Below, piece by piece: positions 36,777 through 64,000 of a DNA stretch of 64,000 nt (the first letter of the stretch is position 1; each line of letters starts with the position of its first letter). This stretch comes from Methanosarcina barkeri str. Wiesmoor (lineage in GTDB: Archaea; Halobacteriota; Methanosarcinia; Methanosarcinales; Methanosarcinaceae), in contig NZ_CP009526.1 of NCBI RefSeq assembly GCF_000969985.1, positions 3,720,001-3,784,000 of the forward strand, written 5' to 3'. Under the pieces are notes generated by a model. It saw only the letters and a program-made list of their open reading frames with translations. It had not been told where the DNA came from and made no database searches. Made by a program: the position numbers and the translations under genes.

Positions 36777-36800
36777 GTATGTACAAGGAGATGACCCTCA

Positions 36801-37574: not shown

Positions 37575-37673
37575 AGATTTCTTAACGAAAAATAAAATGT
37601 CGAATTTAAGGTAGTACAGGCATGTTGAAAAACCTGTACACCTTTTTAACTCCTTTTTTGTTTGAGTGAAAAT

Positions 37674-38159
37674 ATGTCTATACTAAATGCTCCTGTACGC
37701 ATCCTTGGCTGCGGAAGCCCGTTAATGGGAAACGATGGTGTTGGCCTCAAAGTCATTGAGGCTCTTCAAGAGTCCGAACTTAAAGACCTCAAAGATATCG
37801 ATATCGTGGATGCAGGGGTCTGTGGGCTTGACCTTCTAAATCTTCTCGACGGCGCCAGGAAAGTCATAATAGTTGATGCAATTCTGGCTAACAGTCCCCC
37901 AGGTTCAGTACACCGTATAGATGGGAAGGACTTACTGGATGGTGTCGAATTTCATCCCCTGGTTTCAGTACACGACCTGACAATTACAGATGTATTGAAA
38001 ATAGGAGAACAGGTTCAAGAGCTTCCGGAAATCGTGGTCATCGGAATCGAAATCGGATCTATTGTCACGGAAGCTACGCAGGAAATCAGTCCGGATGTTC
38101 TTAATGGTGTGGATAAAGCCATAAAGCTAATCAGGGAAGAGGTTTTTTCCTCACTTTAA
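37674..38159 (+). CDS. vhtD: Hydrogenase maturation endopeptidase VhtD
   Basis: A 161-residue HybD/HyaD-type protease. The start ATG 37674 is preferred over in-frame TTG 37662. Motifs: GCGSPLMGNDGVG (Glu-equivalent replaced by the usual N-D-G-V-G Asp) near residues 11-23, DAGVCGLDLL, and the third nickel-sensing ligand His in LVSVHDLTI. It cuts the C-terminal peptide of the large subunit once nickel is in place. It is the only such protease in the window and may process both large subunits. Its stop codon lies within a 59-bp duplicated segment. Confidence 0.93.
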   Translation: MSILNAPVRILGCGSPLMGNDGVGLKVIEALQESELKDLKDIDIVDAGVCGLDLLNLLDGARKVIIVDAILANSPPGSVHRIDGKDLLDGVEFHPLVSVHDLTITDVLKIGEQVQELPEIVVIGIEIGSIVTEATQEISPDVLNGVDKAIKLIREEVFSSL

Positions 38160-38262
38160 TTTTATTTTTGCTAATCTACTTTAATTTTTGTTTTGTTCAA
38201 TTATTTTCTTCACTTTAATTTTATTTTTGCTAATCTACTTTAATTTTTGTTTTGTTCAATTT
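38151..38262. repeat. 59-bp direct duplication covering the vhtD stop
   Basis: The segment starting CACTTTAATTTTATTTTTGC at 38152 (inside the last codons of vhtD) recurs from 38211 over at least 50 bases. The duplication places a second copy of the vhtD end in the spacer. Confidence 0.9.
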
Positions 38263-38395
38263 CTGCTTTGCCTCTGTTTTCAGTTTACATTTTGCCCCAT
38301 ATTTACTATTTTGTTGATTTGATCCTTTCCTTCTACAGTAATTTATATCTGGTAAGAGACCTATTTGAAGATAATATATTAAAAATGATTTATAA

Positions 38396-38938
38396 TTCCA
38401 GGGTGGGACTATTTCACAATTTCTTGGTCAAGTAGTACTTAATATACTTTCTTTAGGAGCAATTTTCTATGCCGCGACGCTTGTTACTGCAAATACCTCT
38501 ATTACTCAGAAGAATCTAGAGACCGAAGTTATCATCAACTCCACGGCTGCCAGGGTCTGGCAAACTCTTACTGATTTTGGGGCATACCCACAGTGGAATC
38601 CATTTATCCGTGAGGTGACAGGAGTTTCCAATTCAGGTGAGCAATTAACTATTCAAATGCATCTAGGCAACCGTGTTATGACAATTCGACCAACTATTCT
38701 TGTCATTCGGCCAGAAAGAGAGCTGCGCTGGATCGGCCATCTGTTAATTCCTGGAATATTCGATGGCGAGCACAGTTTTGTAATAGAACCAGCTGGTGAG
38801 AACAGGGTGCGTCTGATTCAACGAGAGACATTCAACGGGCTTTTGGTGCCATTTTCGGGTTCCTTACTTGGCAATACTAAACGGAGTTTTAGTACGATGA
38901 ATCTGGCACTTAAGGAGCGCGTTGAGCAGTCAAACTAA
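38396..38938 (+). pseudogene. SRPBCC (polyketide cyclase/START-like) domain protein, frame-broken at the 5' end
   Basis: The open frame from 38396 encodes about 180 residues: a hydrophobic helix (FLGQVVLNILSLGAIFYAATLVTA) and then an SRPBCC ligand-binding domain (EVIINSTAARVWQTLTDFGAYPQWNPFIREV ... HSFVIEPAGENRVRLIQRETFNGLLVPF). No ATG precedes the helix in this frame; a TAA sits at 38393-38395, and the plausible start ATG 38385 is one frame off. A GTG at 38615 would give only the second half of the domain. A single indel near 38400 is the simplest explanation, so it is probably a recent pseudogene, or it uses a non-canonical start. Confidence 0.6.
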
Positions 38939-39162
38939 CCTAAATCTGAAGTCCTGCCGGACAAATAAGTTAAATTTCAAGCCCCTGAAGGATGAAATTT
39001 TAGAAATGAACCGGATATAATTACGGAAAAAGAAAACGTGAGGTTTCTGTCTCTCGGGGCAGATCTCTGTTTAGATATCTTTTAAAGTTAACACAACTAT
39101 TTTTTCATTTATACCTTCATTTGAAGCTCTTTTGCTGTTAATACGGCTTTTTTCTTCAATAG
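38939..39162. other. Spacer between convergent genes
   Basis: AT-rich with no hairpin strong enough to call and no reading frame supported. Confidence 0.3.
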
Positions 39163-40083
39163 TTACTTGGATTTCCCCGGTACCCAGTTGCTATAGAGTT
39201 TCCACTCAATTAAAGAGTCTTCACTATCGGTTTCGATGTAAAATCGCCATATAAAGGGCTCTTCAATTGCAAAAAATTCAAAATTTACAAGAGTATTAGG
39301 TAAAAGTACAGATTCTTTTGCTTCCCCTGTATTTGTTTTTATCGTGATGTTTGACTCTTCGACATTCAGGTTATTTACCTCAAGACGGACCGATTTACCA
39401 GCCTCAGCTTCAAAAGAAGAACTACTCCCACTCCAGGTTCCCGCAGTATGGAATTTACGTCCCTTACTATCAACCGTAGGAGGTAGTCTGGTCATAGGTG
39501 AAATTGTTGGTTTGGTCACATGAACCAGTTTTTGTTCAATCGGAACTGCCTGGGTTTTCAGGATTGGAGGTTCTGCTATCGGTGCTTCAGGAGGTTGGGG
39601 TATTTTTACTGCAGGCGCTCCTACCTTTGGAGCCTGTGGCATCTCTACTGGCGGGACTTCAGGTGCCCTTACTGGCCCTACCGGAGATGCCTTTGGTGAT
39701 CGAACCGGAGATTCCGGAAATAATGGAGTCGGGACCTCCGATACCTGCGGCTCGGTTACTGGTGAAATCGAAGGTTCCGGTACGCCCGTGAAAAATTCCT
39801 CATCGAGACTTCCTATAGTCTCTTGCCCTATTATACCATCAACCTTCAGGCCTCGTGACTCCTGATAACTTCTAACCGCCAGTTCGGTTTCCCCACCAAA
39901 AATGCCATTGGCTCCAACCTCAGGTACGGGAAAGTCCAAAAATATTAAAGCCTGTTGAACTTTCCTTACCGCAGAGCCACGGTCCCCTCTTTGGAGATAT
40001 CTTTCGTTGTCATAACAAGCTTCCAGAACCTCGTCGCCTTCAAATCTCGACGACCTTAAATCGTGACCATCCCCAATAGTCAT
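39163..40083 (-). CDS. Peptidoglycan-binding-like domain protein with Pro-rich linker
   Basis: A 306-residue protein. Residues about 29-95 are a PG_binding_1 fold (YLQRGDRGSAVRKVQQALIFLDFPVPEVGANGIFGGETELAVRSYQESRGLKVDGIIGQETIGSL). Residues about 98-210 are a Pro/Glu/Val-rich linker (SPVTEP, PVRSPKASPVGPVRAPEVPP). The C-terminal roughly 90 residues form a beta-rich domain (GTWSGSSSSFEAEAGKSVRLEVNNLNVEESNITIKTNTGE). No signal peptide is visible, so secretion is unexplained. Methanosarcina lacks murein, so the domain must bind another glycan or act in protein assembly. It lies between the two hydrogenase operons on the opposite strand. Confidence 0.8.
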   Translation of the reverse strand: MTIGDGHDLRSSRFEGDEVLEACYDNERYLQRGDRGSAVRKVQQALIFLDFPVPEVGANGIFGGETELAVRSYQESRGLKVDGIIGQETIGSLDEEFFTGVPEPSISPVTEPQVSEVPTPLFPESPVRSPKASPVGPVRAPEVPPVEMPQAPKVGAPAVKIPQPPEAPIAEPPILKTQAVPIEQKLVHVTKPTISPMTRLPPTVDSKGRKFHTAGTWSGSSSSFEAEAGKSVRLEVNNLNVEESNITIKTNTGEAKESVLLPNTLVNFEFFAIEEPFIWRFYIETDSEDSLIEWKLYSNWVPGKSK

Positions 40084-40106
40084 ATTCTATCCCCCACGTT
40101 TGCCGC

Positions 40107-40158
40107 ATAACTTTTCCCTTAAATATGCAACAATAACTTTTCCCTTAAATATGCAACA
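40107..40158. repeat. 26-bp tandem duplication upstream of the second hydrogenase operon
   Basis: ATAACTTTTCCCTTAAATAT begins two exact units at 40107 and 40133. The unit includes a TTAAATAT TATA-like string, so two tandem promoter-like elements are produced. Confidence 0.85.
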
Positions 40159-40223
40159 TTATCACTAAATACTACTAGCCTTAAAATTTCAATAAAATTC
40201 CAATAAATAAACTAGTGATATTA

Positions 40224-40234
40224 AAATATATAAG
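40224..40234 (+). promoter_or_regulatory. Candidate TATA box of vhxGAC
   Basis: AAATATATAAG in an AT-rich field about 200 bases before the small-subunit start would give a leader of about 180 bases. Spacing to other AT-rich strings makes this only a candidate. Confidence 0.3.
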
Positions 40235-40434
40235 TTTTTAGAAAAATTATATTTATTAAATGATTTAAATTTAATTTAAACAATCTCCTACTGTTGCAAA
40301 GTAAAGGAGTTACTTGTGAAGTGGTTATTGAAGGTTTGATAGTCTTTGATATATATGTGATATTCTTTAATATATTGGATTCTATTTTTTTATATACCAT
40401 TTTTTATATATCTTTATATGAAATTATTAGTAAC

Positions 40435-41670
40435 ATGGGGGGAAGTAGAACGGATAATGACGACTTACTTGAAAAGTTTAAAAATCTCGATTTCATGAAA
40501 ATGGATCGTCGGACCTTTATAAAGGCTGTTGGGGTATTAGGGGCTTCATTGTTTTTACAAACGTATAAAAACGATCTAGCAAAAGCTCTCGAGTTTTCGG
40601 AAACTAAAGTTGTATGGCTTCATGGAGTAATGGATAGTGGCTGTACCATATCAATGCTGGACGGGGGCTCTCCTGATATCATAGAATTCCTTCAGGAATA
40701 TAATCTCAAGCTTCTCTATCATGAAGTTTTAATGATGCAGCAGGGAATTTTCGTAGATGGAAAGCTCGCAAATACCAGTGATCTTAATTCTGAGATTGTG
40801 CTGGATGATATCTTGGAAAAGGAAAAAGGTTACGTTCTAGTCTCCGAAGGAGCGATTTCGAACGGCCCTGAAGGTTCCGGGAAATATCTCATGTTGGGAG
40901 GAAGGACCTATAAAGAGATTTACGCAAAAGCTGCTAAAAATGCTTTAGCGATTGTTGCAATTGGAAATTGTGCGACTAATGGTGGTGTGAACTCTGCTAA
41001 GAGTGATATAGTTGAACTTATGGATCCTCGTGGGGTTGCTTTTACTATGGAAGATGCTTCAAAAGGGATTTTAGATCTTCTTGGCATCGAAAAACCTGTA
41101 ATTAATCTTACTGGTTGCCCTACTCATCCAGACTGGGTTTTTTTGACAATAGGCGCAGTTGTTTTGGGAAAGATAAAGATACCTGATGATTTGCCTTATG
41201 TACTGGATCACTGGAAACGTCCAAAGGTTTTCTTCCCGCCTGACCATGTCATTCATGATAACTGTTCTCGTCGTGGATACTATGACCGTGGAGAATTTGA
41301 GCTGACAGTAGGTGGACCGAAGTGCCTCTGGAAACTGGGGTGCAAGGGGCCTTATACTCATGCAGACTGTGCTACTCGCAACTGGAATGGTCATCTTAAT
41401 TACTGTCCTCAGGCGGGTTCTCCCTGTATTGGCTGCGTTCAGCCAGGCTTCCCGGATAGCACCAGGCCTTTTTTCGTGGAATTTGAGAAAACAGGAATTG
41501 TAGGTACGAATATCACTACTATAGCAGGCGTGGCAATAGGAGGCGCGCTACTTGCTGCAGGGGCTCATGCTGTCAGGAGAACAGCCATGAAAAGACCTGA
41601 GGACGAGGGAGGCCTTGCCGAAGAAAGCACTCCTGAGGAAATCGAAGAAGAAACAGGAGGTGAAAAATAA
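40435..41670 (+). CDS. vhxG: [NiFe] hydrogenase small subunit of the second operon (VhxG-like), proximal-cluster Cys missing
   Basis: A 411-residue homologue of VhtG from ATG 40435; the frame is open to 40294 but the extra residues are hydrophobic and unlike VhtG. The Tat motif DRRTFIK (residues 24-30) is kept. Where VhtG has SECTGCSE this protein has VMDSGCTI: the Glu and first cluster Cys are replaced by Met66 and Asp67, and only Cys70 remains. The other ligands persist (GNCATNGG, GCPTHPDW, HDNCSRRGYYDRGEF, KCLWKLGCK, CPQAGSPCIGC). The tail has an acidic extension (PEDEGGLAEEST...) not seen in VhtG. Electron transfer from the active site may be altered. Confidence 0.9.
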   Translation: MGGSRTDNDDLLEKFKNLDFMKMDRRTFIKAVGVLGASLFLQTYKNDLAKALEFSETKVVWLHGVMDSGCTISMLDGGSPDIIEFLQEYNLKLLYHEVLMMQQGIFVDGKLANTSDLNSEIVLDDILEKEKGYVLVSEGAISNGPEGSGKYLMLGGRTYKEIYAKAAKNALAIVAIGNCATNGGVNSAKSDIVELMDPRGVAFTMEDASKGILDLLGIEKPVINLTGCPTHPDWVFLTIGAVVLGKIKIPDDLPYVLDHWKRPKVFFPPDHVIHDNCSRRGYYDRGEFELTVGGPKCLWKLGCKGPYTHADCATRNWNGHLNYCPQAGSPCIGCVQPGFPDSTRPFFVEFEKTGIVGTNITTIAGVAIGGALLAAGAHAVRRTAMKRPEDEGGLAEESTPEEIEEETGGEK

Positions 41671-43460
41671 TGGTACAGGTTACTGTTGATCCTCTTACGA
41701 GAATTGAAGGACACTACAGGATCAATACCGAAGTCAATGAGGAAGGCGTAATTACTGATGCCCAGAGTAATGGCTTGCAGTTAAGGGGTTTTGAACGTCT
41801 CTTACAGCACCAGGATCCTAGGGATGCATCACTTCTGTCCCAGAGGATTTGTGGTGTTTGTCCTGTTAGCCACGGGATAGCTGCAGCAAATGCCCTGGAT
41901 GACCTCTTCGGGGTTGCAGGTGAGGTTCCAATAGACGGTCTTCTAATGCGAAATGTCCACCAGGCTCTGAACTTCATAGCCAGCCATGCAGCACATATCT
42001 ATCTTCTTTGGGGTCCTGACCTTGCAAACCCGGCTTACCGTGATATCCTGGCAAAATACGGGGATGTTGGAAATGCAGTCTGGAAAGAACTTCAGGGGCG
42101 TTTTGCGCCTTTGATTTATCAGCTTGACGGCACCAGTTATCCGGCTGGCTCGTCTTATCTAGGCTCTATAGTGGAATTTCGCCGCTTGCACGAAGCTATT
42201 TCTTTAATAGCTAGCAAGATGCCTCATCCGGTTCTTCAGCATGTTGGAGGTGTAGTTTATTCTCCGACGGTTGCTGATATCGGGCAAATTTTAAGCTATA
42301 TCACGAAAACGATGGAGTTCGTTGAAGCATTTACTCTTGGAGTCTCTCCCGATATCTGGATTGAAAATACTTATAGAGCTTCTTCTCCTCAAAAGGCTGC
42401 TAATTTCGTTCTTAATCACCTGCAAGAACTTCTGAATAAATCCCTTGACAACAAGGACTTCTCACACTCGGCTGGTTGGGGAGATGTCCCTCTCTTTGCA
42501 GCTTTCGGCTCGGAGCTGATAGGGGAAAAACTTCTCGGTCTGCCTATCAGTATGAAAATGGATCTTGCAGGGACTTACAAAGATCCCGGTAAGATCGGTT
42601 TTCTTTCTTACGGAGTTTTCTTTAAGCCCGAGAACGGCAATGGGTATGACCCAACGAGTCCTGCGGACAGCAGAGTTATTTCTTCCGGCTATATGAATGG
42701 ATATTTCAAGCTTGAAAAATTCGACTACAAGAAGATCTCAGAAAGTATCAACCACTCTTTTTACATTGACGACGTAAAAGATCGTCCTCCATGGAACGGG
42801 GTTACGGTTCCGGAAGGAAACCCTGAAAATATCGATTATACAAAAGGATCAAAGAGTCGGTATTCCTGGACAAAAGCTCCTCATTATGATGGAATTCCAT
42901 GTGAGGTTGGGCCCCTTGCTCGTATGATAATAATGGGGGAGCCTCTTGTTACGGGATTGGTAAAAACTTTTCAAGATAACGGCTACTATCCTGTCAATAA
43001 CTATACCCGCATGATTGCAAGGATGCAGGAAATTCTTGTAGTGGTTCCAGAACTTACGAAATGGCTCACACAGGATATTCAGGCAGGCGGAAAGGTTGCT
43101 GTACATACCGATCTTTCTATGGCAAAGAGTTCCACAGGAATGGGTTTATGGGAAGCTCCGCGAGGGGCACTGGGACACTGGGTTGCTACAGGGCCGGATT
43201 CTATGGTAACTCTTTACCAGGCTGTAGTCCCAAGTACCTGGAACCTTGCTCCCAGGAATTCACAGGAGATTCCAAGTCCTGTTGAACAGGCTCTCATAGG
43301 TACCAAAATTTCCGCTGCCGAAAATGCACTTGGAGTGGATTATTCCAATCCTCTTGGAATCCTGCACACAGCTCGCTCTTACGATCCCTGTCTGGCATGT
43401 GCAGTTCATACAATTGATAAAACCGGAAAGCACCCGGATTATATCATCAAGGTACTTTGA
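41670..43460 (+). CDS. vhxA: [NiFe] hydrogenase large subunit of the second operon (VhxA-like)
   Basis: A 596-residue homologue of VhtA. All four Ni/Fe cysteines are present: [11 protein letters not shown] (Cys61, Cys64) and DPCLACAVH (Cys574, Cys577). A 16-residue peptide after His580 would need proteolytic removal, yet the operon has no protease gene, so VhtD would have to act on it. The ATG overlaps the vhxG stop by one base and is preceded by GGAGGTG. Sequence is clearly diverged from VhtA throughout, so this is an old duplication, not a recent copy. Confidence 0.93.
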
Positions 43461-43474
43461 AGGAGGTTAGAAGT

Positions 43475-44266
43475 ATGGTACAATCTGCTCAAACATCCGC
43501 CTCTACAAGAATAGTTGTTGAACGTTATACATGGCTTGAGAGAGTTACTCATTTAGTGCATCTTATTGCCATGTTTGTCCTTCTGATTACAGGATTCAAA
43601 ATTTACTTTGGTTGGGAGTTCATGGCTTTTCAAACAGCCCGAGCCTGGCATACGATTGCTGTGCCTTTTTTCCTGGTTGCAAACTGGATTCTGGTCCCAT
43701 ACAACCTTTTTTCCTGCAAAGAAGAAAGATGCAGTGTCAGAGACAGAATAGTGCATTTTAAGGACTCTTACTTTTTCGGAAAAGATGATGCAGAACGTCT
43801 CATTGGCATAATAAAGAATTTTTTTGGAAAAGGTAGGTACCCGGCATTTAGTATCTATGATGAAACTACTGGTCACTACAAGACGAAACTCCATCCTGTG
43901 ATGAAGATACTGATTGTCCTTGAGAGTATAGCAATTGTCATTGTAGCAATTACAGGAGTAGTGCTTTACAACCTCGACTGGTCTCCTTTTGGAATTCCCA
44001 TTGCGTCATGGATACTTTCCGTAACCTGGTATTTTGCGTCCTTTTTCGATGTCAATGCTTTAGGGTTACTTCGCTTATTACATCTGCTTGCAGCTTACTG
44101 GTTTGTCTTTGAACTTGTGGTTCATGTAGGAATTATTGAATTTGATCCATACGCATGGAAATATCACAAGGCAATTTTTTGGTCAGGAAAAGAAGATCTT
44201 TCAGACAGGCACTTTGTCAAAGTAATTGATGAAGACGAACAAAAAAAAGTAACGGGAGAGCACTGA
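43475..44266 (+). CDS. vhxC: Hydrogenase b-type cytochrome of the second operon (VhxC-like)
   Basis: A 263-residue homologue of VhtC. ATG 43475 is chosen because GGAGG lies 9 bases upstream; an in-frame TTG at 43457 overlaps vhxA. Haem-ligand helices [34 protein letters not shown] and [22 protein letters not shown] match VhtC, and the [19 protein letters not shown] loop is nearly identical. A ten-residue insertion ([11 protein letters not shown]) with two cysteines is specific to this copy. No vhtD-like gene follows. Confidence 0.92.
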
Positions 44267-50159: not shown

Positions 50160-50186
50160 TGTATAAATACTTCTACTCATATGAGT
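50160..50186 (+). promoter_or_regulatory. TATA box followed by a 12-bp palindrome before the NifX-like cluster
   Basis: TGTATAAATAC (50160-50170) is a good archaeal TATA candidate. Five bases on lies the perfect palindrome ACTCATATGAGT (50175-50186). The palindrome sits between TATA box and the expected start site, where a repressor would block polymerase. First start codon is about 65 bases downstream. Confidence 0.45.
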
Positions 50187-50250
50187 GAAAATAGGATTCC
50201 AGGACTTTTGAGTATAGATGGTCACAAAGGAAACAGGTGGAGTAAAAAGA

Positions 50251-50664
50251 ATGAAGATTTGCGTAACAGCCAGTGGTGAAGGGCTTGACTCCGAAGTGGA
50301 CCCCAGGTTTGGGAGATGTAGCTACTTTGTAATTTATGACCCTGAGACCAGAAATGTGGAATCTATATCAAATGCAGCTGCGTTTACCTCTGGAGGTACC
50401 GGTATAAAGGCAGCGGAAATTGTTGCAAACGCAGGAATCGATGTCCTCTTAACAGGAACTATGGGACCCAATGCTTTTTCCATTTTCTCAGAGCTTGGTA
50501 TCGATGTTCAAGTTGGAATAAAGGGTACAGTGCGGGAGGCTATCAGGCAGTATGAAGCTGGAGAACTTCAGTCAATCCGTACTCCCAATACCACTCCTGG
50601 TTCTGGCATGGGGAAGGGGATGAAAGGAGGTGGTATGGGAAGTGGAATAGGTAGAGGCAAGTAA
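50251..50664 (+). CDS. NifX/NafY-like (dinitrogenase Fe-Mo cofactor family) protein
   Basis: A 137-residue single-domain protein of the family that includes NifX, the C-terminus of NifB, and the orange protein ORP. ATG 50251 follows GGTGGAG; ATG 50218 is in frame but lacks a site. Core signatures are SEVDPRFGRCSYFVIYD (residues about 13-29), GGTGIKAAEIVANAGIDVLLTGTMGPNAF and GTVREAIRQYEAG. The tail is Gly/Met/Lys-rich (GMGKGMKGGGMGSGIGRGK) and could bind metal or be flexible. It likely carries a metal-sulphur cluster. First gene of a cluster with a second NifX-like protein, a CDF transporter fusion and two MinD-like ATPases. Confidence 0.88.
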   Translation: MKICVTASGEGLDSEVDPRFGRCSYFVIYDPETRNVESISNAAAFTSGGTGIKAAEIVANAGIDVLLTGTMGPNAFSIFSELGIDVQVGIKGTVREAIRQYEAGELQSIRTPNTTPGSGMGKGMKGGGMGSGIGRGK

Positions 50665-50724
50665 TCCTTAGTCTTGATAACATTAGTAAGACAAAATTTC
50701 TGAGAAAGACACATTCCTCCATGT

Positions 50725-50910
50725 GTGAAAAACGGTATTATTCTCCTTTGTTTGCGAAAAACGGTATTATTCCCCTTAATTAGTGAAAAACAGTATTATT
50801 CCCCTTAATTAGTGAAAAACAGTATTATTCCCCTTAATTAGTGAAAAACGGTATTATTCCCCCTAATTAGTGAAAAACGTCGTTATTCCCCTTAATTAGT
50901 GAAAAACTTA
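50725..50910. repeat. 29-bp tandem repeat, six copies plus a partial, between the NifX-like genes
   Basis: Units start at 50725, 50754, 50783, 50812, 50841, 50870 and (partial) 50899, each G(T/C)GAAAAAC(G/A)GTATTATTCC with a TTAATTA end. There are no spacers, so it is a head-to-tail array and not CRISPR. The partial last unit runs into the TATA-like ACTTATATAG (50906), so the array lies directly upstream of the next gene's promoter. Confidence 0.93.
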
Positions 50911-50996
50911 TATAGTTGTGTAATCTCAAGAATATATGTCAATGCAATCAAAAAGCATTACTAATTGATAAAACGATCGAAAGTGAAGGTGATTAT

Positions 50997-51374
50997 ATGA
51001 AAGTAAGTATTCCTACAAAAGATGAAAATGGTATGGAAGGTGTTGTTGAACCGCACTTCGGAAAAGCTCCTACCTACACCATAATAGACACAGAGACCAA
51101 TCAAGTCACTGTAATTCCTAACACCAGTGAGCATATGGGAGGTACCGGACTGCCTCCAGAGTATCTTCATAATAATGGAGTGAATATCATGCTCTGTGGC
51201 GGACTCGGGTTTAAGGCTGTCAATATGTTCGAATCCTATGGAATCGAGGTTTTTGTGGGGGCTGGCGGCACTGTAAGGGATACGTTTGAGGCCTGGAAAG
51301 CAGGAAAGCTCCAGAACGCGACTGCTGAGAATTCCTGCTCCGAACACGGACACGACGACGATCACCACTGCTGA
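50997..51374 (+). CDS. NifX-like protein with His/Cys-rich C-terminus
   Basis: A 125-residue single-domain NifX/ORP-family protein; ATG 50997 has GAAGGTGA six bases upstream, whereas the open frame back to 50916 has no site. Core motifs VEPHFGKAPTYTIID (about 18-32), MGGTGLPPEYLHNNGVNIMLCGGLGFKAVNMF and GAGGTVRDTFEAWKAGKL are intact. The final 14 residues CSEHGHDDDHHC form an evident metal-binding tail. Paired with the preceding protein and a CDF-NifX fusion downstream, it could pass metal or a cluster among them. Confidence 0.9.
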   Translation: MKVSIPTKDENGMEGVVEPHFGKAPTYTIIDTETNQVTVIPNTSEHMGGTGLPPEYLHNNGVNIMLCGGLGFKAVNMFESYGIEVFVGAGGTVRDTFEAWKAGKLQNATAENSCSEHGHDDDHHC

Positions 51375-51384
51375 AATCACGAAC

Positions 51385-51450
51385 AGTACTGCCAGAGAGA
51401 ATAGTACTGCCAGAGAGAATAGTACTGCCAGAGAGAGTACTGCCAGAGAG
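51385..51450. repeat. 18/15-bp tandem repeat after the second NifX-like gene
   Basis: AGTACTGCCAGAGAG occurs four times; the first two units carry an extra AAT spacer (18 bp) and the last two do not (15 bp). It starts ten bases past the stop codon. Confidence 0.9.
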
Positions 51451-51517
51451 TGTCAGAAAGGTTTCAATTTTCTAAGCTGTGATATGAATCAATGACTCAT
51501 TTAAAACGGATCTTCAA

Positions 51518-52750
51518 ATGAATACACAAGAAAACTTGGAACTAGGGGTTAAAACATCAAGGAACGCAACCCTGGCGCTTGCATTCCTTGCTTTCCTTAA
51601 AGGGGCTGTGGGTATTTATTCCGGAAGCACAGTCTTGTTTGCGGATGCTGTCCACACCGGTCTGGATATTTTTGCCTCTCTAGCAGTCTGGATTGGGCTC
51701 AAGATAAGCCTTAAAAGCAGTAAACATTTTCCTTATGGGTACTACAAAGCAGAGAACATCATAGCTCTCTTTGTTTCTCTATTGATCCTGCTTTCTGGCG
51801 TTGAATTGTTAAGGGAAGGCTTTACGGGCGTAAATACCACTGCTCAGATTGAGTTTCAAGGGCTTGCTCTTGTGACAGCTGTTTTTTCAGTACTTACAAT
51901 CTATGGCCTTTCTATATACAAACGAAATATAGGAACAAAAATCAATTCTCAGTCCTTGATAGCTGACGCGGTGCATTCTTATACGGACGTCTTTTCTTCG
52001 ATGATAGTGGTTGTGGCAGTCCTTGGCTCTATGCTGGGGGTTTCGAAACTTGACAGTTTAGGTACTATTGCAATTTCTCTTTTGATCTTCAAAATGGGAA
52101 TCGAAAGTGCCAGGGATGCAGTGCTCACTCTGATGGATGCCTGGCTTGATGAGGATGAAAGTGAGAGAATTAAAAAAGACATACGTAATATCCCGGGCTT
52201 GATAGATCTTGAGGACCTGAAACTCCGAAAATCAGGACTTGTGGTTTTCGGGGAAGCTACGGTTGAAGTTGAGGGTGAAACCGACTTAAAAAGGGTGGAA
52301 CTGCTTTCTAAGGAAATCAAAACAGCTGTTAAAAAAGAAGTGGAAAACCTGGAGCATATTGTTGTTAATGTAAAGCCTGTACAAAGGAAGAATTTTAGGC
52401 TAGCTCTTCCCGTTTTAGATAATAATGGGTTTCAAGCAAAGCTGTCAGAACATCTTGGGAAAGCTCCTTATTTTCTCTTTGTAGAGATCGAAGAGGGCAA
52501 GGTTGGAGATAATCAAATTGTCGAAAACCGATTTTTTAATTCTGAGAAAAAAGGAGGCATGAAAGCTGCGGACCTAATCATTCGGGAAAAAGCAAACGTC
52601 CTTGCGGTAAGAAATGTTGGTGAAGGTCCATACTATATGCTCCGAGATAATTTTATAAAAATTCTGCAAATTCCCGACGGAGTAGATACTGCTAGAGAAG
52701 TCCTCGACAGGTTCCAGAACCTCGAAGAAATCACAGTTCCTGCGAAATAA
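51518..52750 (+). CDS. Cation diffusion facilitator fused to a NifX-like domain
   Basis: A 410-residue fusion. Residues 1-290 are a CDF exporter with six helices and a cytoplasmic domain. The transport site is H46xxxD50 (ADAVHTGLD) plus H153xxxD157 (ADAVHSYTD), the His-Asp-His-Asp set usually linked to zinc. Residues about 292-400 are a NifX/ORP-like domain (FRLALPVLDNNGFQAKLSEHLGKAPYFLFVEIE ... GGMKAADLIIREKANVLAV), matching the two small proteins encoded upstream though more diverged. The fusion couples metal transport to a metal-cluster carrier. No SD is strong, but CAAATG with nearby AAAACGGATC precedes ATG 51518. Confidence 0.92.
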   Translation: MNTQENLELGVKTSRNATLALAFLAFLKGAVGIYSGSTVLFADAVHTGLDIFASLAVWIGLKISLKSSKHFPYGYYKAENIIALFVSLLILLSGVELLREGFTGVNTTAQIEFQGLALVTAVFSVLTIYGLSIYKRNIGTKINSQSLIADAVHSYTDVFSSMIVVVAVLGSMLGVSKLDSLGTIAISLLIFKMGIESARDAVLTLMDAWLDEDESERIKKDIRNIPGLIDLEDLKLRKSGLVVFGEATVEVEGETDLKRVELLSKEIKTAVKKEVENLEHIVVNVKPVQRKNFRLALPVLDNNGFQAKLSEHLGKAPYFLFVEIEEGKVGDNQIVENRFFNSEKKGGMKAADLIIREKANVLAVRNVGEGPYYMLRDNFIKILQIPDGVDTAREVLDRFQNLEEITVPAK

Positions 52751-52838
52751 CATAGAAAATCACAGTTCCTGCGAAATAACATAGAAAATTACAGTTCCTG
52801 TGAAATAACATAGAAAATTACAGTTCCTGTGAAATAAC
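52744..52838. repeat. 29-bp tandem repeat, three copies, covering the CDF-fusion stop
   Basis: Units GAAATAACATAGAAAAT(C/T)ACAG... begin at 52744, 52773 and 52802, with a partial at 52831. The first contains the TAA of the CDF fusion, so the array is a duplication of the gene's 3' end. Confidence 0.92.
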
Positions 52839-52851
52839 ATGGAGATCGGAT

Positions 52852-53709
52852 ATGAAAATTGCAATTGCAAGTGGAAAAGGAGGAACCGGGAAAACCACGG
52901 TTTCTTTAAATCTTGCCCTTTCTCTTTCAGATGTACAGCTTTTTGACTGCGATGTAGAAGAACCTAACTGTAATCTTTTCCTTGGCTTTGACCTTGAAAA
53001 AGTAGAAGATGTAGTTTGTCCGGTGCCTGTAATCGATCAAGAAAAGTGCAATATCTGCAGGCAGTGTTCGGATTTTTGCCGTTATAACGCCCTGGCAGCC
53101 CTTCCTACCAGAGTTTTGTTTTTCCCTTCTCTCTGCCACGGATGCGGGGGATGTGCTGTCCTTTGCCCGGAAGAGGCAATCCAGGAATCTCAGAGGTTCC
53201 TTGGAGTAATCGAAAAAGCAAAAGGAAGAAGTTCACCTGAGTTTTACAGGGGGCTTTTAAATATTGGGGAAACGATGACATCGGCTGTTATCAAAGAGCT
53301 CAAGAAACATATCGATGATCATAAAACTGCAATTCTAGATGCTCCTCCCGGAACTGCCTGTCCCGTTATTACTTCTATTGGTGACGTGGATTATTGTGTG
53401 CTTGTGACTGAATCAACACCTTTTGGTTTCCATGACCTCAAGCTCGCCATAGGCGTTGTAAGGGCGCTTAAAATTCCCTTTGGAGTTATCATTAACCGCT
53501 GGGGGTTAGGAGATTCAAGGGTTGAAGAATACTGCAAAGCCGAAGGAATTCCTGTTCTTCTCAAGATACCAAACGATCTCAGAATTGCAGAGCTCTATTC
53601 TCGCGGCATTCCCTTTGTTCAAGAAATGCCGGAATGGAAAGAGAAGTTTCTCAGTATGTTTGAAGCAATAAAACTCCAGCTTGCAGGTGTAGAGGAAGCG
53701 AGAACATGA
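52852..53709 (+). CDS. MinD-like P-loop ATPase with inserted 2x[4Fe-4S] ferredoxin domain (first)
   Basis: A 285-residue cytoplasmic protein. Deviant Walker A GKGGTGKTT (residues 8-16), switch DCDVEEPN (about 33-40), an inserted bacterial-type ferredoxin (CNICRQCSDFCRYNA and CHGCGGCAVLCPEEA, about 64-110) and DAPPGTACPV Walker B. It belongs to the COG1149 type found beside NifX/ORP proteins in anaerobes, where pairs such as ORP3/ORP4 of Desulfovibrio work together. Its stop overlaps the start of the second ATPase by four bases. Probably moves or inserts metal-sulphur clusters with the neighbouring proteins (inference). Confidence 0.92.
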   Translation: MKIAIASGKGGTGKTTVSLNLALSLSDVQLFDCDVEEPNCNLFLGFDLEKVEDVVCPVPVIDQEKCNICRQCSDFCRYNALAALPTRVLFFPSLCHGCGGCAVLCPEEAIQESQRFLGVIEKAKGRSSPEFYRGLLNIGETMTSAVIKELKKHIDDHKTAILDAPPGTACPVITSIGDVDYCVLVTESTPFGFHDLKLAIGVVRALKIPFGVIINRWGLGDSRVEEYCKAEGIPVLLKIPNDLRIAELYSRGIPFVQEMPEWKEKFLSMFEAIKLQLAGVEEART

Positions 53710-54638
53710 AGCAGCTTACTGTAATCAGCGGAAAAGGTGGGACTGGAAAAACAACCCTTACGGCAGCTTTTGCCTCGCTTGCAAAAAATGCTGTTATTGC
53801 CGATTGCGATGTGGATGCAGCTGACATGCATCTTATCCTGAAACCCGAAATTCTGGAAAAAGAAGACTATTACAGCCTCGAGATTGCCAGGATTGATCCG
53901 GAACTCTGTATCGAATGTGGAAAATGCAGAGAATTTTGCAGGTATGAGGCAGTAAGTGAAAATTTTGAAGTTGACCCTTATGAATGCGAGGGGTGTGCTG
54001 TCTGCACCATTGTTTGTCCCAACGGAGCAGTTTCCATGAAAAAAAAGGTTTCAGGTCAGTCTTTTTCTTCTGAAACCCGTTTTGGGCCTATGGCTCATGC
54101 AAGGCTCGGCATCGGAGAAGAAACAAGTGGAAAACTTGTAAGCACTGTTCGAACCAATGCGAAAAAGCTTGCAGAACAATATCATAAAGATTTAATTATA
54201 ATTGACGGGCCTCCTGGAACAGGCTGTTCCGCAATTTCAGCTATTACAGGTACGGACCTGGTTCTGGTGGTAAGTGAGCCAACCGTTTCTGGAATCCATG
54301 ACCTTAAAAGAGTTCTTGAGCTTACTGCACACTTCATGATCCCCACTGTTATATGCATAAACAAGTATGACATAAATGAAGAGAACACTCAGTTGATTGA
54401 AAATTTCTGTGCCGAGATGGAAATTCCGGTAATAGGCAGGCTTCCTTATAATGACATTGTAACGAAGGCAATGCTTCAGGAACAAACCTTGATAGAGTAT
54501 GCTAAAAGCAGTGCGTGTTTAAACGAAAACGAATTTGCGGATCAGGTCTGCCAAATCTGGGCCAGGGTAGAAAATATACTGATGGGTGTTCAGGATAAAC
54601 AGACAGGGATTAAAACCCTCAAAATGAAAAATTTATAA
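53706..54638 (+). CDS. MinD-like P-loop ATPase with inserted 2x[4Fe-4S] ferredoxin domain (second)
   Basis: A 310-residue partner of the preceding ATPase with the same order of domains: GKGGTGKTT (about 9-17), DCDVDAADMHL, ferredoxin insert CIECGKCREFCRYEAV and CEGCAVCTIVCPNGAV (about 66-112), and DGPPGTGCSAIS. The two are clearly paralogous but diverged, typical of obligate heteromers. ATGA overlap gives translational coupling. A C-terminal extension of about 20 residues is lysine-rich. It ends the plus-strand cluster. Confidence 0.92.
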   Translation: MKQLTVISGKGGTGKTTLTAAFASLAKNAVIADCDVDAADMHLILKPEILEKEDYYSLEIARIDPELCIECGKCREFCRYEAVSENFEVDPYECEGCAVCTIVCPNGAVSMKKKVSGQSFSSETRFGPMAHARLGIGEETSGKLVSTVRTNAKKLAEQYHKDLIIIDGPPGTGCSAISAITGTDLVLVVSEPTVSGIHDLKRVLELTAHFMIPTVICINKYDINEENTQLIENFCAEMEIPVIGRLPYNDIVTKAMLQEQTLIEYAKSSACLNENEFADQVCQIWARVENILMGVQDKQTGIKTLKMKNL

Positions 54639-56765: not shown

Positions 56766-59700
56766 TTAGATTCTTAAGAATTTTTCATCTTTGAACAAAA
56801 TGACTTTTGATCTCTCTTCTTTTTCTATTTCATAGAGGATTTCAAATGCTATGTTAATTGAAAATTCATGATCTGATTCAAGTAGATCTTCCAGCTGCTT
56901 TTTATTTTTTACAGTACAAATCTTTCCAAGTGCCTCTGCCCCGTTCCATCGCACATGTTCATCTTTCAGCGCGTTAATTAGCGGCTGCACAGCTGTCTCG
57001 GATTTAATATTTCCAAGTGCCTCTGCCGCTTCTCTCCGCACATCTGAATCTTCATCTTTGAGTGCGTTAATTAGCGGCTGCACAACTGTCTCAGATTTAA
57101 TATTTCCAAGTGCCTCTGCCGCTTCTCTCCGCACATCTGAATCTTCATCTTTGAGTGCGTTAATTAGTGGCTGCACAGCTGTCTCAGATTTAATATTTCC
57201 AAGTGCCTCTACCGCGCTCCTCCGCACATATTCATTTTCATCTTTGAGTGCGTTTATTAGCGGCTGCACAGCTGTCTCAGATTTAATATTTCCAAGTGCC
57301 TCTACCGCGCTCCTCCGCACATCTTCATTTTCATCATTCAGTGCGTTAATTAGCGGCTGCACAGCTGTCTCAGATTTAATCTTTCCAAGTGCCTCTACCG
57401 CGCTCCTCCGCACATCTTCATTTTCATCATTCAGTGCGTTAATTAGCAGCTGCACAGCTGTCTCAGATTTAATATTTCCAAGTGCCTCTGCCGCGCTCAA
57501 TCGCACGTGTGAATTTTCATCTTTCAGTGCGTTGATTAGCAGCTTCACTGCTGTATCAGATTTTATTTTTCCAAGTATCTCTGCCACATTCCACCGAAGA
57601 TCATCATCTTCATCTTTCAATGCGTTGATTAGCGGCTGCACAGCTGTCTCAGATTTAATCTTTCCAAGTGCCTCTACCGCGCTCCTCCGCACATCTTCAT
57701 TTTCATCATTCAGTGCGTTAATTAGCGGCTGCACAGCTGTCTCAGATTCAATATTTCCAAGTGCCTCTGCCGCTCCCCTCTGCACATTTTCATTTTCATC
57801 ATTCAGTGCGTTTATTAGCAGCTGCACAGCTGTCTCAGATTTAATATTTCCAAGTGCCTCTGCCGCGCTCAATCGCACGTGTGAATTTTCATCTTTCAGT
57901 GCGTTGATTAGCAGCTTCACTGCTGTATCAGATTTTATTTTTCCAAGTATCTCTGCCACATTCCACCGAAGATCATCATCTTCATCTTTCAATGCGTTGA
58001 TTAGCGGCTTCACAGCTTTGTCAGATTTTATATTTCTAAGTGCCTTTATCGCGCTCCACCGCACACTTGGATCTTCATCTTTCAAGGCTTCGCTAATTAT
58101 ACTGATTCCAGCGACTCCAATTCTTCCTAGGCTTTCAATAGAACTAATCTTTTCTAATATACACTTAGAATCCATTTTCTCGGTAAGTAAAGCACGCAGT
58201 TTTTCCTTTACTTTTTCACTTGCTTTATTTACACACTTTGAAGCCAAGAAAAGCTCGCTTTTTAAAAGCATTGAACCAATAAATTTGTCAATCGAGTCCG
58301 AATCCAGCATTTCAGAGGTGAATATCACAACTTCTTCCCATTTTGGATGACTAAAAGCCTCTGATACGTCAAATCCACTTTCAAAAAGTTCTTTTAGCTT
58401 TATAGCTGCAAAATATTCTTGAAAAGACTGGTGGATTCCATATGATACATAATTATCATTTCTATTAAGTATTCCAAGTTTGAAGCAGTCTTCAAGAATT
58501 AACTGCGGGCTAATTTTTTTAAACATAGAATCTTCAGAACTTTTTTTGACAAATTTGAGAGCTCCAGAATATTTACATGAAACTTCATTCCTGCATTGAA
58601 GTTTAAAATACAGGTCAGTAAGAGAATTCTCGATTTGTATTCTGTCTGCGTGAAGGCCTTTCCCCTTTTCTTCCTGATGACTGAAAAGAATATCAATAAA
58701 ATTTTCGTACAATTTAGAACGTTTTGAAGGCAGTAAGTCATCGGACTTGTCTTTTCTTCCCATAGCAACTTTGATGGCAATGTAAAGCATCATTGGGTTT
58801 GAGAGTATGGATTTTAGCTGTTGATTGCTAAGGATTTTGTCTTTGAGAGTATTTGCGAGTTCTTCATTTGAAACAGAGCGATCTATGAATATCTCGATTT
58901 TTTCGTCGGTTAGTTTTTCCAATTCCGAGACTTTGAAACTGCTTTTTATACTCTCAAAAAAGCCCGGTCTTGAAGAAATAACAAATCTGCAATTATTGTA
59001 ATCGGTAATGAAATTTGAAATCTTATCATAGGGATAGAATTCATCGGTAGGTGAAAGTAAGTCAAAGCCATCGAGGAGAATAGTTGCTTTTCCTTTCAAT
59101 ATCGTTTTTAGGACGTCTTCTGATATTCCTTTCTCTTCGGCTTTCTTAGCGATGTATATATCAAATGGGTTTTTTATGAAACGTTCTTCACCGATGTATG
59201 AATTTAATTCAATGTACAGGGGAACATTTTCGTTTTTCTCCTCAAGGTAACTTTTAGCAAGGATATAATTCAACCATCTAAATGTAGTTGTTTTTCCTGA
59301 GCCTGATTCACCGGAAATGATAAGCTTTTCTTCTTTTTCAACAAGCTCAAGAACCTCAAATTCTTGTTCTCTATTGCTTTCCTCATCGTGGAATTTGAGA
59401 GTTACTGGCAAAATCTCTTTGGCTGAAAGTTCGGTATAGACTTCACTGACCCCGGTTTTTCCATCTTCATCTATTATTTTATTCAGGTATTTTTCTAATG
59501 ATTCTTCAAAGTATACGCCGGATTCTTTTTTACTTTGATTTTCTCTTCTGCCGTTGATTACTTCGTGCACTTCCTGAACGTTATGAGCTAGTTCCTTGAC
59601 GTCTTTAGATAGCTTTTTAACCCCTTGATTCATCTCTTGGGTTGTTTTATATGTTTCTTTTGCTAAGTAGAACTCAAGATCGTTTTTAAGTTCAGGTTCT

Positions 59701-60050
59701 TTTTCTATTTCGGAATCCATTATCTCAAAAAAGGAATTTAAAATTAAATCTGCGTCTTCGCGGGAGAAATCCTCCCCACTGAACAATTCAAAAAACTCGT
59801 GGATTAAAATATTTGAACAATCAATCTTATCTGGATTTTTCAGGTATTTTTCAATTGCTTTTTCCACATTTTCCTGATGAAAAAACGTATCAATTTGTAT
59901 TCCAGTCAATTTATAGCTCTTATTCGAGAACTCTTTTATTGCTTTATCATAAACTTTTGAAGAAGTATTAAAAATGTGTCCAGGGATCTTCTTGGAAGAG
60001 TCATACAAGAAGTTAGTAAGAAAGCCCAAAGCTAATCCTGAAATAGCCAT
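56766..60050 (-). CDS. NACHT-type NTPase with C-terminal HEAT repeats
   Basis: A 1,094-residue signal-transduction ATPase (STAND class). Residues 1-135 are a helical effector or recruitment domain starting with a hydrophobic patch (SGLALGFLTNFLY); 136-165 are coiled-coil-like. The NACHT core has P-loop GESGSGKT (247-254), Walker B ILLDGFD (324-330) and sensor CRFVISSRPGF (354-364), followed by winged-helix and QSFQEYFAAIKL segments. From about 640 on, thirteen HEAT/PBS-lyase-type repeats of 31 residues (SETAVQPLINALKDENEDVRRSAVEALGNIK) form a sensor solenoid, then a 50-residue cap. This plan is used by many prokaryotic immune NTPases. Defence is an inference. Confidence 0.88.
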   Translation of the reverse strand: MAISGLALGFLTNFLYDSSKKIPGHIFNTSSKVYDKAIKEFSNKSYKLTGIQIDTFFHQENVEKAIEKYLKNPDKIDCSNILIHEFFELFSGEDFSREDADLILNSFFEIMDSEIEKEPELKNDLEFYLAKETYKTTQEMNQGVKKLSKDVKELAHNVQEVHEVINGRRENQSKKESGVYFEESLEKYLNKIIDEDGKTGVSEVYTELSAKEILPVTLKFHDEESNREQEFEVLELVEKEEKLIISGESGSGKTTTFRWLNYILAKSYLEEKNENVPLYIELNSYIGEERFIKNPFDIYIAKKAEEKGISEDVLKTILKGKATILLDGFDLLSPTDEFYPYDKISNFITDYNNCRFVISSRPGFFESIKSSFKVSELEKLTDEKIEIFIDRSVSNEELANTLKDKILSNQQLKSILSNPMMLYIAIKVAMGRKDKSDDLLPSKRSKLYENFIDILFSHQEEKGKGLHADRIQIENSLTDLYFKLQCRNEVSCKYSGALKFVKKSSEDSMFKKISPQLILEDCFKLGILNRNDNYVSYGIHQSFQEYFAAIKLKELFESGFDVSEAFSHPKWEEVVIFTSEMLDSDSIDKFIGSMLLKSELFLASKCVNKASEKVKEKLRALLTEKMDSKCILEKISSIESLGRIGVAGISIISEALKDEDPSVRWSAIKALRNIKSDKAVKPLINALKDEDDDLRWNVAEILGKIKSDTAVKLLINALKDENSHVRLSAAEALGNIKSETAVQLLINALNDENENVQRGAAEALGNIESETAVQPLINALNDENEDVRRSAVEALGKIKSETAVQPLINALKDEDDDLRWNVAEILGKIKSDTAVKLLINALKDENSHVRLSAAEALGNIKSETAVQLLINALNDENEDVRRSAVEALGKIKSETAVQPLINALNDENEDVRRSAVEALGNIKSETAVQPLINALKDENEYVRRSAVEALGNIKSETAVQPLINALKDEDSDVRREAAEALGNIKSETVVQPLINALKDEDSDVRREAAEALGNIKSETAVQPLINALKDEHVRWNGAEALGKICTVKNKKQLEDLLESDHEFSINIAFEILYEIEKEERSKVILFKDEKFLRI
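56900..58075. repeat. 93-bp HEAT-encoding DNA repeats with a 372-bp higher-order duplication
   Basis: The gene's 3' third is an array of 93-bp units. The segment 57484-57626 recurs almost exactly at 57856-57998, 372 bp (four units) away, so protein repeats 1-4 were copied as a block to give repeats 5-8. Antisense frames through the array stay open for over 400 codons as a side effect. Confidence 0.9.
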
Positions 60051-61456: not shown

Positions 61457-64000
61457 TTATTCCCAATCTAAAAACAGCTCGGTTTTTAAGATTTCTTCCA
61501 TTTCAATGCCTTCCAGGATCTCAAAAGCGAGATTTGCCGTAAACTCATCCTTTGAGTCCAGTAAAGCCTGCAAGCGTGGTCTGTCATCTTCAGTACATAT
61601 CTTTTTGAGGGCTCCGGCTGCTTCGGCTTTTACGAAGCGGTTCCAGTCATATAAGCTATTGATTAGGGGCTCGATGGCTTTTTTTGGTTTTATCCGGCCG
61701 AGGGCTTTTGCAGCAGCCAGGCGCGTGAAATCGTCCTTGTCCATAAGGGAGGCAATAAGATGATCTACTGCTTTTTCGGCCTTAATCCGGCCGAGAGCTT
61801 CGGCTGCACCTGATCTTCCTTTATTATTCTGGTCCATCAGCGCATCAATAAGAGGTTCTATAACCCGCCTGGATTTTATTTTTCCAAGTGCTTTTGCAGC
61901 TTCTTCTTTTACAAAGCCATCGTTATCAAAAACCAGCACATCTATCAGGGGCTGGAGGGCTTCTTTTGATTTTATCCGGCCGAGGGTGTTGGCTGCAAAC
62001 CGGCGCACGGTTGCATCTCTGGACTTGAGGACACTGACCAGCTGGGGGATAGCTTTTTCACAATCAAAAAGGTTCAGGGACCCGGCTGCAAGCCTCCTGA
62101 CTTCATCATCCTCGTTATCAAGGGCACTGATCAGGGATTCAAAAGCTCTTTTGCTCCTGCTTTCAGATAGGCTTTGCAGTGCTTTTGCTGTCTCCTTTCG
62201 CACAAGTTTATCTTCGTCTTTCAGGGCATTATCAATGAAATCAAAGATTTGGTCCGATATGCAATCAGGAATCCCATAGGGAGTTATCTGGCCAAGGGCT
62301 CTTACTGCTCCTTGCCTTGTGAAAGGGTCCTGGGACTTAAAAATCCTGATAAGGGGATCAAGGACTTTTTCGCACTCCAGTTGTCCTAGTGCATTTGCAG
62401 CTTCCTTCCTGACAAAGCGGTTTTCATCTCCAAGTGCAAAAAGCAACGGAGCAATGGCTTTTCTGACTTTTATCATTCCCAAGGCTTTTGCGGCTTCCAG
62501 TCGGACTAAATGGCTGTTGTCCTGGAGTTTATTTATCAGGGTTTTAGCAGTTTTCTCGGACTTTATTTCTCCAATGGATTCTACGGCTGTCTTTCTTACA
62601 AATTCATCCTCATCCGAGAGTGCCGAAACAAGGGGGTCAAGCGTATCCTCGGACCCTACTACTCCAAGGGCTTTTGCGGCTTCTCTTCGGACGAAACGGC
62701 TTTTATCTCCAAGCATATTGACGAATGTGCCGGAAGTTTTGTCCGATTTGATTTCTCCAAGTGCTTTTGTAGCGATCCAGCGCACAAATTCATCCTTATC
62801 TTCAAGGGCACCTACAAACGGTTCAACAGCTCTTTCCGATCTCATCCGGCCCAGGGCTTCGGCAGCCCCCAGCCGGACAAGCTTGTCTTCTTCCTGAAAT
62901 GCCTTTATAAGAGCTTCTGCTGCTTGCCTGGAATTTGTTCTTCCAAGAGCCCCTACAGCCCCAATCCGAACAAAATCATCTTTGGCCCCAAGTGCGGAAA
63001 TAAGGACTTCCAGCGCTTTTTCAGATTCAATCTGCATTAGCGCATTTGCAGCTTCCAGTCGGACAGCCCGATTCTTATCTTTAAATGTGTCTCTGAGCAA
63101 TTCAATTGCTCTTTCGGACCCTATTAAGCCAAGAGACTTTATGGCTTCTATCCGCACAGAATAATCTGCGTCCCCAACTGCAGTCTCAAGCGGAACAAGT
63201 GCCATCTTGGATCTGGTTTCCCCAAGCACTTTCGCAGTTTCTCTTTTTACCCTGATATCTTTATCTTTAAGTGCTCCAGTATTGGCCCTGATCCCACAGG
63301 TTCCTAGCCTTCCAAGGCTCTGAACAGCCTTTACTTTTTCTATAGTATACCTGCTGTCAAGTCTTCTGGCAAGCAAAGCACATAGCTTTCCTTTTGTTTC
63401 GGGGCTGGCTCTCAGAGCACATTTTGAAGCCAGATATAAGTTTCCGCTTGAGATCATCGAATTTACAAGTTCTTCTTCTGATTCGAGCAAATCCGAGGTG
63501 AGCATTATCACATTCTCCCATCTTGGATTCCTGAATGCCTTTGAAATGTCCGTCCCATTTTCAAAGTAAGTTTTCAACTTTAAAGCTGCAAAATATTCCT
63601 GAAAAGCTCGATCTATTCCGAACTTTATTTCTGACCTCTTTCTTATCAGGAGTCCGAGCCCTAAGCAGGCCTGAAGGAGTTTTCTGGCCTTTATCTTACC
63701 CAATCGGCTGTACTCGGTAGTCCTTCCAGACTTGCTGTATTCTATAATTCTTCCAGACTTGTTGCATTCTGCAATCTTTCCAGACTTGCTGTATTCTATA
63801 ATCTTTCCAGACTTGCTGTATTCTATAATCTTTCCAGATCTTCTGGATTCTGTATATGCTTCTGCCACTTCAATTGCATAGCTATACTTACATGAAATCT
63901 TATTTCTGCACTGGAGTTGGAAGGCCAGGTTCATAAGGACATTTTCTATATCTGTTCTTTCGGTATTCAGCTCTTGACTATCTGTTATTCCATTATTTAG
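61457..64000 (-). CDS. NACHT-HEAT paralogue, 5' end beyond the window
   Basis: The frame is open to the right edge (848 codons visible), and the first visible residues (TDIENVLMNLAFQLQCRNKISCKYSYAIEVAE) align with the region after the NACHT core of the other gene (IQIENSLTDLYFKLQCRNEVSCKYSGALKFVK). The P-loop part is therefore expected outside. Residues about 60-110 of the visible part carry five to six decapeptide repeats (SGKIIEYSK) absent from the paralogue. The QEYFAALKLK segment follows, and then about 18 HEAT repeats, more divergent than in the first gene, and a matching C-terminal cap (DEFTANLAFEILEGIEMEE). Confidence 0.85.
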   Translation of the reverse strand, partial: LNNGITDSQELNTERTDIENVLMNLAFQLQCRNKISCKYSYAIEVAEAYTESRRSGKIIEYSKSGKIIEYSKSGKIAECNKSGRIIEYSKSGRTTEYSRLGKIKARKLLQACLGLGLLIRKRSEIKFGIDRAFQEYFAALKLKTYFENGTDISKAFRNPRWENVIMLTSDLLESEEELVNSMISSGNLYLASKCALRASPETKGKLCALLARRLDSRYTIEKVKAVQSLGRLGTCGIRANTGALKDKDIRVKRETAKVLGETRSKMALVPLETAVGDADYSVRIEAIKSLGLIGSERAIELLRDTFKDKNRAVRLEAANALMQIESEKALEVLISALGAKDDFVRIGAVGALGRTNSRQAAEALIKAFQEEDKLVRLGAAEALGRMRSERAVEPFVGALEDKDEFVRWIATKALGEIKSDKTSGTFVNMLGDKSRFVRREAAKALGVVGSEDTLDPLVSALSDEDEFVRKTAVESIGEIKSEKTAKTLINKLQDNSHLVRLEAAKALGMIKVRKAIAPLLFALGDENRFVRKEAANALGQLECEKVLDPLIRIFKSQDPFTRQGAVRALGQITPYGIPDCISDQIFDFIDNALKDEDKLVRKETAKALQSLSESRSKRAFESLISALDNEDDEVRRLAAGSLNLFDCEKAIPQLVSVLKSRDATVRRFAANTLGRIKSKEALQPLIDVLVFDNDGFVKEEAAKALGKIKSRRVIEPLIDALMDQNNKGRSGAAEALGRIKAEKAVDHLIASLMDKDDFTRLAAAKALGRIKPKKAIEPLINSLYDWNRFVKAEAAGALKKICTEDDRPRLQALLDSKDEFTANLAFEILEGIEMEEILKTELFLDWE
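63690..63840. repeat. 30-bp tandem repeats encoding SGKIIEYSK units
   Basis: Five units of about 30 bp (TTTCCAGACTTGCTGTATTC on the plus strand) lie inside the second NACHT-HEAT gene. They keep the frame because the period is divisible by three. Confidence 0.9.

Follow-up and report, generated by a model that had tools for sequence, protein, structure and literature searches.

In a 64,000-nucleotide stretch of the Methanosarcina barkeri genome, here called the window, a cluster of five consecutive plus-strand genes (50251-54638) appears to be an ORP-type system to which a fusion of a CDF transporter with a NifX carrier domain has been added. Pfam and NCBIfam checks bear out the gene content given by a sequence-only reading of this DNA, i.e., two NifX-like carriers (NifX1 and NifX2), a CDF-NifX fusion and two MinD-type ATPases (MinD1 and MinD2), with all five genes confirmed and their domains above the Pfam cut-offs. 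The features of the cluster are:

50162..50169, plus strand: TATA-like promoter element TATAAATA, read from the sequence
50176..50185, no strand: perfect palindrome CTCATATGAG, candidate operator, 6-7 nt downstream of the TATA box
50251..50664, plus strand: NifX1, ORP-subfamily carrier with a Gly/Lys/Arg-rich C-terminal tail (PF02579, 83 bits)
50997..51374, plus strand: NifX2, HFG-motif carrier with a Cys/His tail (PF02579, 72 bits)
51336..51371, plus strand: NifX2 tail CSEHGHDDDHHC, containing the C-x2-H-x-H that is conserved in NifX2-type proteins
51518..52750, plus strand: CDF transporter-NifX fusion, 410 aa (Pfam, tree, AlphaFold)
52439..52717, plus strand: fused NifX domain, residues 308-400 (PF02579, 52 bits; H312, N337 and G347 conserved)
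52852..53709, plus strand: MinD1, P-loop ATPase with an inserted 2x[4Fe-4S] ferredoxin domain (CbiA/ParA and Fer4)
53047..53166, plus strand: two MinD1 ferredoxin motifs, C66-C76 and C95-C105 (motif search)
53706..54638, plus strand: MinD2, paralogous ferredoxin-ATPase, 4-nt overlap with MinD1
53907..54017, plus strand: two MinD2 ferredoxin motifs, C68-C78 and C94-C104 (motif search)

Orthologue starts and ribosome-binding sites place the most likely start of NifX1 at 50251, not at the 50218 of its open reading frame, and that of NifX2 at 50997, not at the TTG at 50916. Intergenic tandem-repeat arrays lie between the operon genes at 50725-50907 (29 bp x 6.3), 51381-51450 (18 bp x 4.1) and 52728-52840 (29 bp x 3.9). 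The 4.9-Mb Methanosarcina genome holds five PF02579 matches, three of them in the cluster. The linkage to nif genes expected of NifX/NafY nitrogenase cofactor carriers is not seen in the cluster, as the 30 larger window ORFs scanned gave zero matches to nitrogenase families, in agreement with the earlier remark that no nif genes are near. A search for M. barkeri co-expression literature found nothing. Elsewhere, the window contains two gene sets in tandem for the small and large subunits of [NiFe] hydrogenase, plus hypD (33833-44266 and 31022-32140), an ABC transporter of the Fe-siderophore/cobalamin type with three paralogous binding-protein genes (3913-10343), and two large HEAT-repeat proteins (56766-60050 and 61457-63934), the first with a NACHT domain; the long ORF on the opposite strand (57058-58350) seems to be an artefact caused by the HEAT repeats.

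NifX1 matches both the Desulfovibrio gigas ORP (PDB 2wfb, E 1.8e-22) and MTH1175 (1eo1, E 7.3e-23), a protein assigned to the IssA clade (PMC5524996), and shares a tree group with 2wfb (SH-aLRT 87-88). Its tail comprises 33 aa with a pI of 11.1, including 11 Gly, 5 Lys/Arg and zero aromatic residues, and the tails of its orthologues are mostly Gly/Arg/Lys-rich with a pI of 10-12, the exceptions being the short tails of one genus (g7). With IssA of Pyrococcus furiosus, a NifX-domain protein that has a cationic tail and stores thioferrate (PMC5524996), NifX1 shares the NifX-fold core, and its Gly-rich, high-pI C-terminal tail resembles that of IssA in part. However, the IssA tail is 70 aa long, and that of NifX1 is half that length and without aromatics. 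The orthologue tails are of the same kind as those of IssA and the uncharacterised IssX group, though shorter (PMC5524996). In Methanococcus voltae, two IssA-type proteins rise during growth on pyrite (PMC8516115), and FmpB of Desulfovibrio magneticus also has a NifX-type domain (PMC4287615); we found no CDF-NifX fusion described in that magnetosome paper. The grouping of NifX1 with D. gigas ORP would also suit true ORP chemistry, in which a thiomolybdate-copper cluster would be held by NifX1 and the pump would remove its heterometal, since S2MoS2CuS2MoS2 is carried by ORP proteins (PMC6345978). However, few family members are known to hold this cofactor, which is unreadable from sequence, the tail of NifX1 is IssA-like, and copper is not normally carried by CDFs; we consider a Mo-Cu-sulphide role improbable.

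NifX2 is placed in the tree with bacterial Cys/His-tailed carriers and the Di-Nase domain of MrpORP. The case for its His/Cys tail, described earlier from the single sequence, has become stronger, as C-x2-H-x-H is kept in 29/32 NifX2-type protein tails and extra histidines often follow. We infer that this tail may act as a metal donor.

The two ATPases are of the MinD/ParA type, both contain KGGTGKT and a pair of C-x2-C-x2-C-x3-C motifs, and they form the proposed ferredoxin-MinD pair, both genes having a P-loop and Fer4 and overlapping by 4 nt. Orthologues of MinD2 occur in 212 of the 392 genomes of the phylum, and in the bacterial phylum sampled around L199 strong matches come from 179 of 297 genomes, with identities of 45-60% among the matches listed. 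Most of 20 bacterial MinD2 loci combine Nbp35 or MrpORP with two NifX types, MinD1 and MinD2; the MrpORP beside the ATPase orthologues at locus L244 scores 503.6 against an NCBI equivalog cut-off of 450, and at bacterial locus L241 the fusion follows MinD2. This spread of MinD2, the bacterial loci with MrpORP or Nbp35 and the L241 fusion argue that the window cluster is of the ORP type, lacking MrpORP and with the fusion added. MrpORP (Orp9, an Nbp35-NifX fusion) is absent from the window cluster, and in several relatives a separate Nbp35 adjoins the operon. The ORP-like kinship proposed in the sequence-only reading is thus upheld by the tree positions of NifX1 and NifX2 and by the ATPase orthologues in bacterial clusters.

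In common with the Desulfovibrio ORP complex (Orp3, 4, 5, 8, 9), the window has an ORP-type (Orp8) NifX protein, two adjacent paralogous ATPases with two 4Fe-4S motifs each (Orp3/Orp4), and a second NifX type with an HFG core and a terminal Cys/His motif. It differs in having no MrpORP, in the added CDF-NifX fusion and in its control, with an archaeal TATA promoter and its own palindrome where sigma-54 is described for Desulfovibrio. In a 2007 paper that PMC3949148 cites, Scholten and co-workers reportedly proposed an archaeal origin for the Desulfovibrio genes DVU2103/2104/2108. MrpORP likewise joins a NifX domain to a metal-handling partner, and NifX2 resembles its Di-Nase domain, but in the window fusion the partner is a CDF transporter, not the Nbp35 ATPase, and the fused domain is of a different subfamily. 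Fe-S is passed from MrpORP to ORP partners (PMC6345978). Archaeoglobus fulgidus AF2378-AF2380, tied in print to the Desulfovibrio genes (PMC3949148), are also archaeal NifX and CbiA-type ATPase genes, although the CDF-NifX fusion is not reported there. An F430 shuttle has been put forward for a locus of ANME-2a comprising a P-loop NTPase, a NifX protein, 4Fe-4S proteins and a CDF (PMC12622379); on this view the cluster would deliver nickel or F430 to methyl-coenzyme M reductase. That role was assigned from a predicted interaction network, and in the same paper the gene for NifX is located far away from those for F430 (PMC12622379). Given also that this combination of ATPases and carriers is common in a bacterial phylum where F430 would not be expected, and that CDF proteins are normally exporters, we regard such delivery as very improbable.

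The pump is physically joined to a carrier domain, as the earlier reading held: PF01545 (144.5 bits), PF16916 (46 bits) and PF02579 are found in one gene, and the C-terminal domain of the CDF protein matches PF02579 at 52 bits against a cut-off of 26.3. The AlphaFold model (mean pLDDT 77.7, pTM 0.46) has a six-helix membrane part, a ZT_dimer domain and a separate NifX fold. In the established CDF topology the ZT_dimer domain is cytosolic, and since it precedes the NifX domain the latter would be cytosolic too. The closest PDB fold to the model is YiiP, with ZnT zinc transporters also among the closest. The transport site (H46, D50, H153, D157) aligns to D47, D51, H155 and D159 of YiiP; across 93 fusions D50 and D157 are invariant, H46 is kept in 92, and at residue 153 there are 76 with H and 16 with Q. 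The HDHD site described earlier is therefore present in the window fusion but not uniform among its relatives. It suggests zinc rather than iron. Fusions with Q at the H153 position, mostly HDQD, are those of L114-L118, L122-L124, L127, L129, L131, L132, L135-L137 and L144, a group whose sequences hint at another metal preference.

The fusion shares its fold, transport-site position and ZT_dimer domain with the YiiP/FieF CDF exporters, and differs from them in having HDHD in place of the DDHD of YiiP, an additional C-terminal NifX domain, and YiiP sites B and C that are mostly not conserved. At the positions that we take, partly from PDB titles, to form sites B and C, mostly other residues occur across the 93 fusions, with one site-C histidine position still H in 48 of them. 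Loss of the YiiP regulatory sites, as first read from the window fusion, holds in this set at the level of the site, not of every residue. The HDHD site and the YiiP- and ZnT-like fold would fit zinc homeostasis, whereby the CDF pumps Zn2+, the NifX2 His/Cys tail buffers zinc and the pump's NifX domain docks this tail or buffer, and metal ABC-transporter genes which, by our reading of their sequences, resemble ZnuABC lie near some relatives. Both the IssA-like tail and the ATPase/ferredoxin partners of ORP type indicate Fe-S or thiometallates instead, and the replacement of H153 by Q also speaks against zinc, so that we hold this explanation to be unlikely, if not markedly so. Ejection of an intact cluster by the pump, as suggested earlier, is unlikely because CDF proteins are carriers of single divalent cations.

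The sequence-only reading had called the CDF-carrier fusion new, which was too strong, as its range spans Halobacteriota and includes at least two bacteria. A first profile scan gave 74 fusions in Halobacteriota, and 95 distinct fused NifX domains entered a tree built from the scan set, named contigs and the two bacterial cases, L199 (a Deltaproteobacteria MAG) and L241. They make up one side of one branch, whose support is 85-89, which fits a single origin. At L072:8446-8805, a stand-alone NifX of the CDF-fused subfamily lies between NifX1 and MinD1 in a genome which holds the fusion elsewhere; as it is nested in the fusion clade, a later fission is likely. No earlier description of a CDF-NifX fusion was found in the openly accessible papers searched, and the fusion seems to be widespread yet undescribed.

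Both ATPases lie within 7 kb and on the same strand at 22 of the 73 archaeal fusion loci, against 0.35 expected, an expectation that holds even assuming two ATPase pairs in every genome. The co-occurrence of fusions with paired ATPases, which the earlier reading had proposed to look for, is therefore not a matter of chance. The set NifX1, NifX2, (Fsr), CDF-NifX, MinD1, MinD2 recurs, in varying order, in Methanosarcina (M. spelaei and others), related Methanosarcinaceae, Methanococcoides, ANME-3 and a further family (f6), and the neighbourhood is thus conserved in other genera, families and one bacterium. Of the two outcomes by which the earlier reading would have been refuted, a fused domain without a PF02579 match and neighbours conserved nowhere else, neither is observed. 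In Methanococcoides and ANME-3 (L043:6165-8093, L157, L160, L165, L167 and others), an Fsr-type reductase is found inside the operon, directly before CDF-NifX. This neighbour of about 640 aa, for which FeoB had been considered, is by Pfam an Fsr-type F420-dependent sulphite/nitrite reductase (FrhB and NIR_SIR).

The remaining 51 of the 73 archaeal fusions are separated from the ATPases, as in M. acetivorans, ANME-1 and ANME-2c, which implies that the fusion can act without them nearby. In M. acetivorans, the fusion gene (L142:6072-7985) follows an ATP:corrinoid adenosyltransferase gene, far from the ATPase pair. Such dispersed loci would be expected if fusion and cluster were not functionally coupled and the CDF-NifX gene merely resided in the operon. 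Linkage at about 60 times chance, recurring with differing gene orders in Methanosarcinaceae, families f2, f6 and f7 and one bacterium, makes us doubt strongly that they are uncoupled.

Regarding control of the operon, the TATA box together with CTCATATG within 9 nt has one occurrence in the 4.9-Mb genome. The palindrome CTCATATGAG has three copies genome-wide, with a TATA box in front only at the cluster copy; a regulon search with it gave two other genomic sites, neither preceded by a TATA box. Of 42 distinct regions upstream of NifX1, 21 contain it with at most one mismatch, where shuffled sequence would give 0.27; this excess is overstated, as close relatives are not independent. The regions bearing it include those of Methanococcoides and ANME-3, and we propose it as a candidate operator. 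DUF134 as its regulator remains a guess, the genome itself having three DUF134 genes, none close by. In two genomes of family f9 (L119:7232-8823 and L130:4608-6349), the start of the CDF-NifX gene lies within an overlap with a DUF134 gene, away from any ATPases.

The model we favour, tentatively and at slightly below an even chance, is an ORP-type operon with which an anaerobic archaeon would handle sulphide units of iron or another metal, extended by a membrane exporter. We favour it because of the subfamily placement of the three NifX domains, the ORP match, the bacterial ATPase orthologues, the ATPase linkage, the tail chemistries, the retained transport site, the mostly unconserved YiiP sites B and C, and the published findings on MrpORP, IssA and the IssA-type proteins of M. 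voltae. Against it speak the zinc-like HDHD site, the 51 archaeal fusions away from the ATPases, and the NifX1 tail, which is shorter than that of IssA and free of aromatics. The NifX fold and cationic tail of NifX1 would bind anionic metal-sulphide units, and NifX2 would bind metal via its HFG motif and C-x2-H-x-H tail, while the MinD1/MinD2 pair would use ATP and electrons to build clusters or hand them between carriers and targets. The CDF part would export a single divalent cation, Fe2+ or Zn2+, with export starting once the carriers are full, and the fused cytosolic NifX domain would replace the usual CDF regulatory zinc sites and sense or supply metal. The domains, gene order, conservation and subfamily placement, the retained transport site and the lack of conservation at the YiiP regulatory sites are observed; the metal's identity, the direction of transport, cluster transfer and metal sensing we infer.

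It is an open question how metal-sulphide units are moved and stored in strict anaerobes, where demand is high and oxygen absent, and the fusion adds a membrane protein to the ORP system, which is poorly understood. It is possible, albeit rather doubtful, that the NifX domain serves as an integral sensor or donor of metal sulphide that gates a cation exporter, in which case this CDF subfamily would read the carrier pool, not free Zn2+, across methanogens and anaerobic methanotrophs. With about 95 distinct sequences and a genetically tractable host in Methanosarcina, the conserved exporter-carrier fusion allows a direct test of whether cluster trafficking and metal export are linked.
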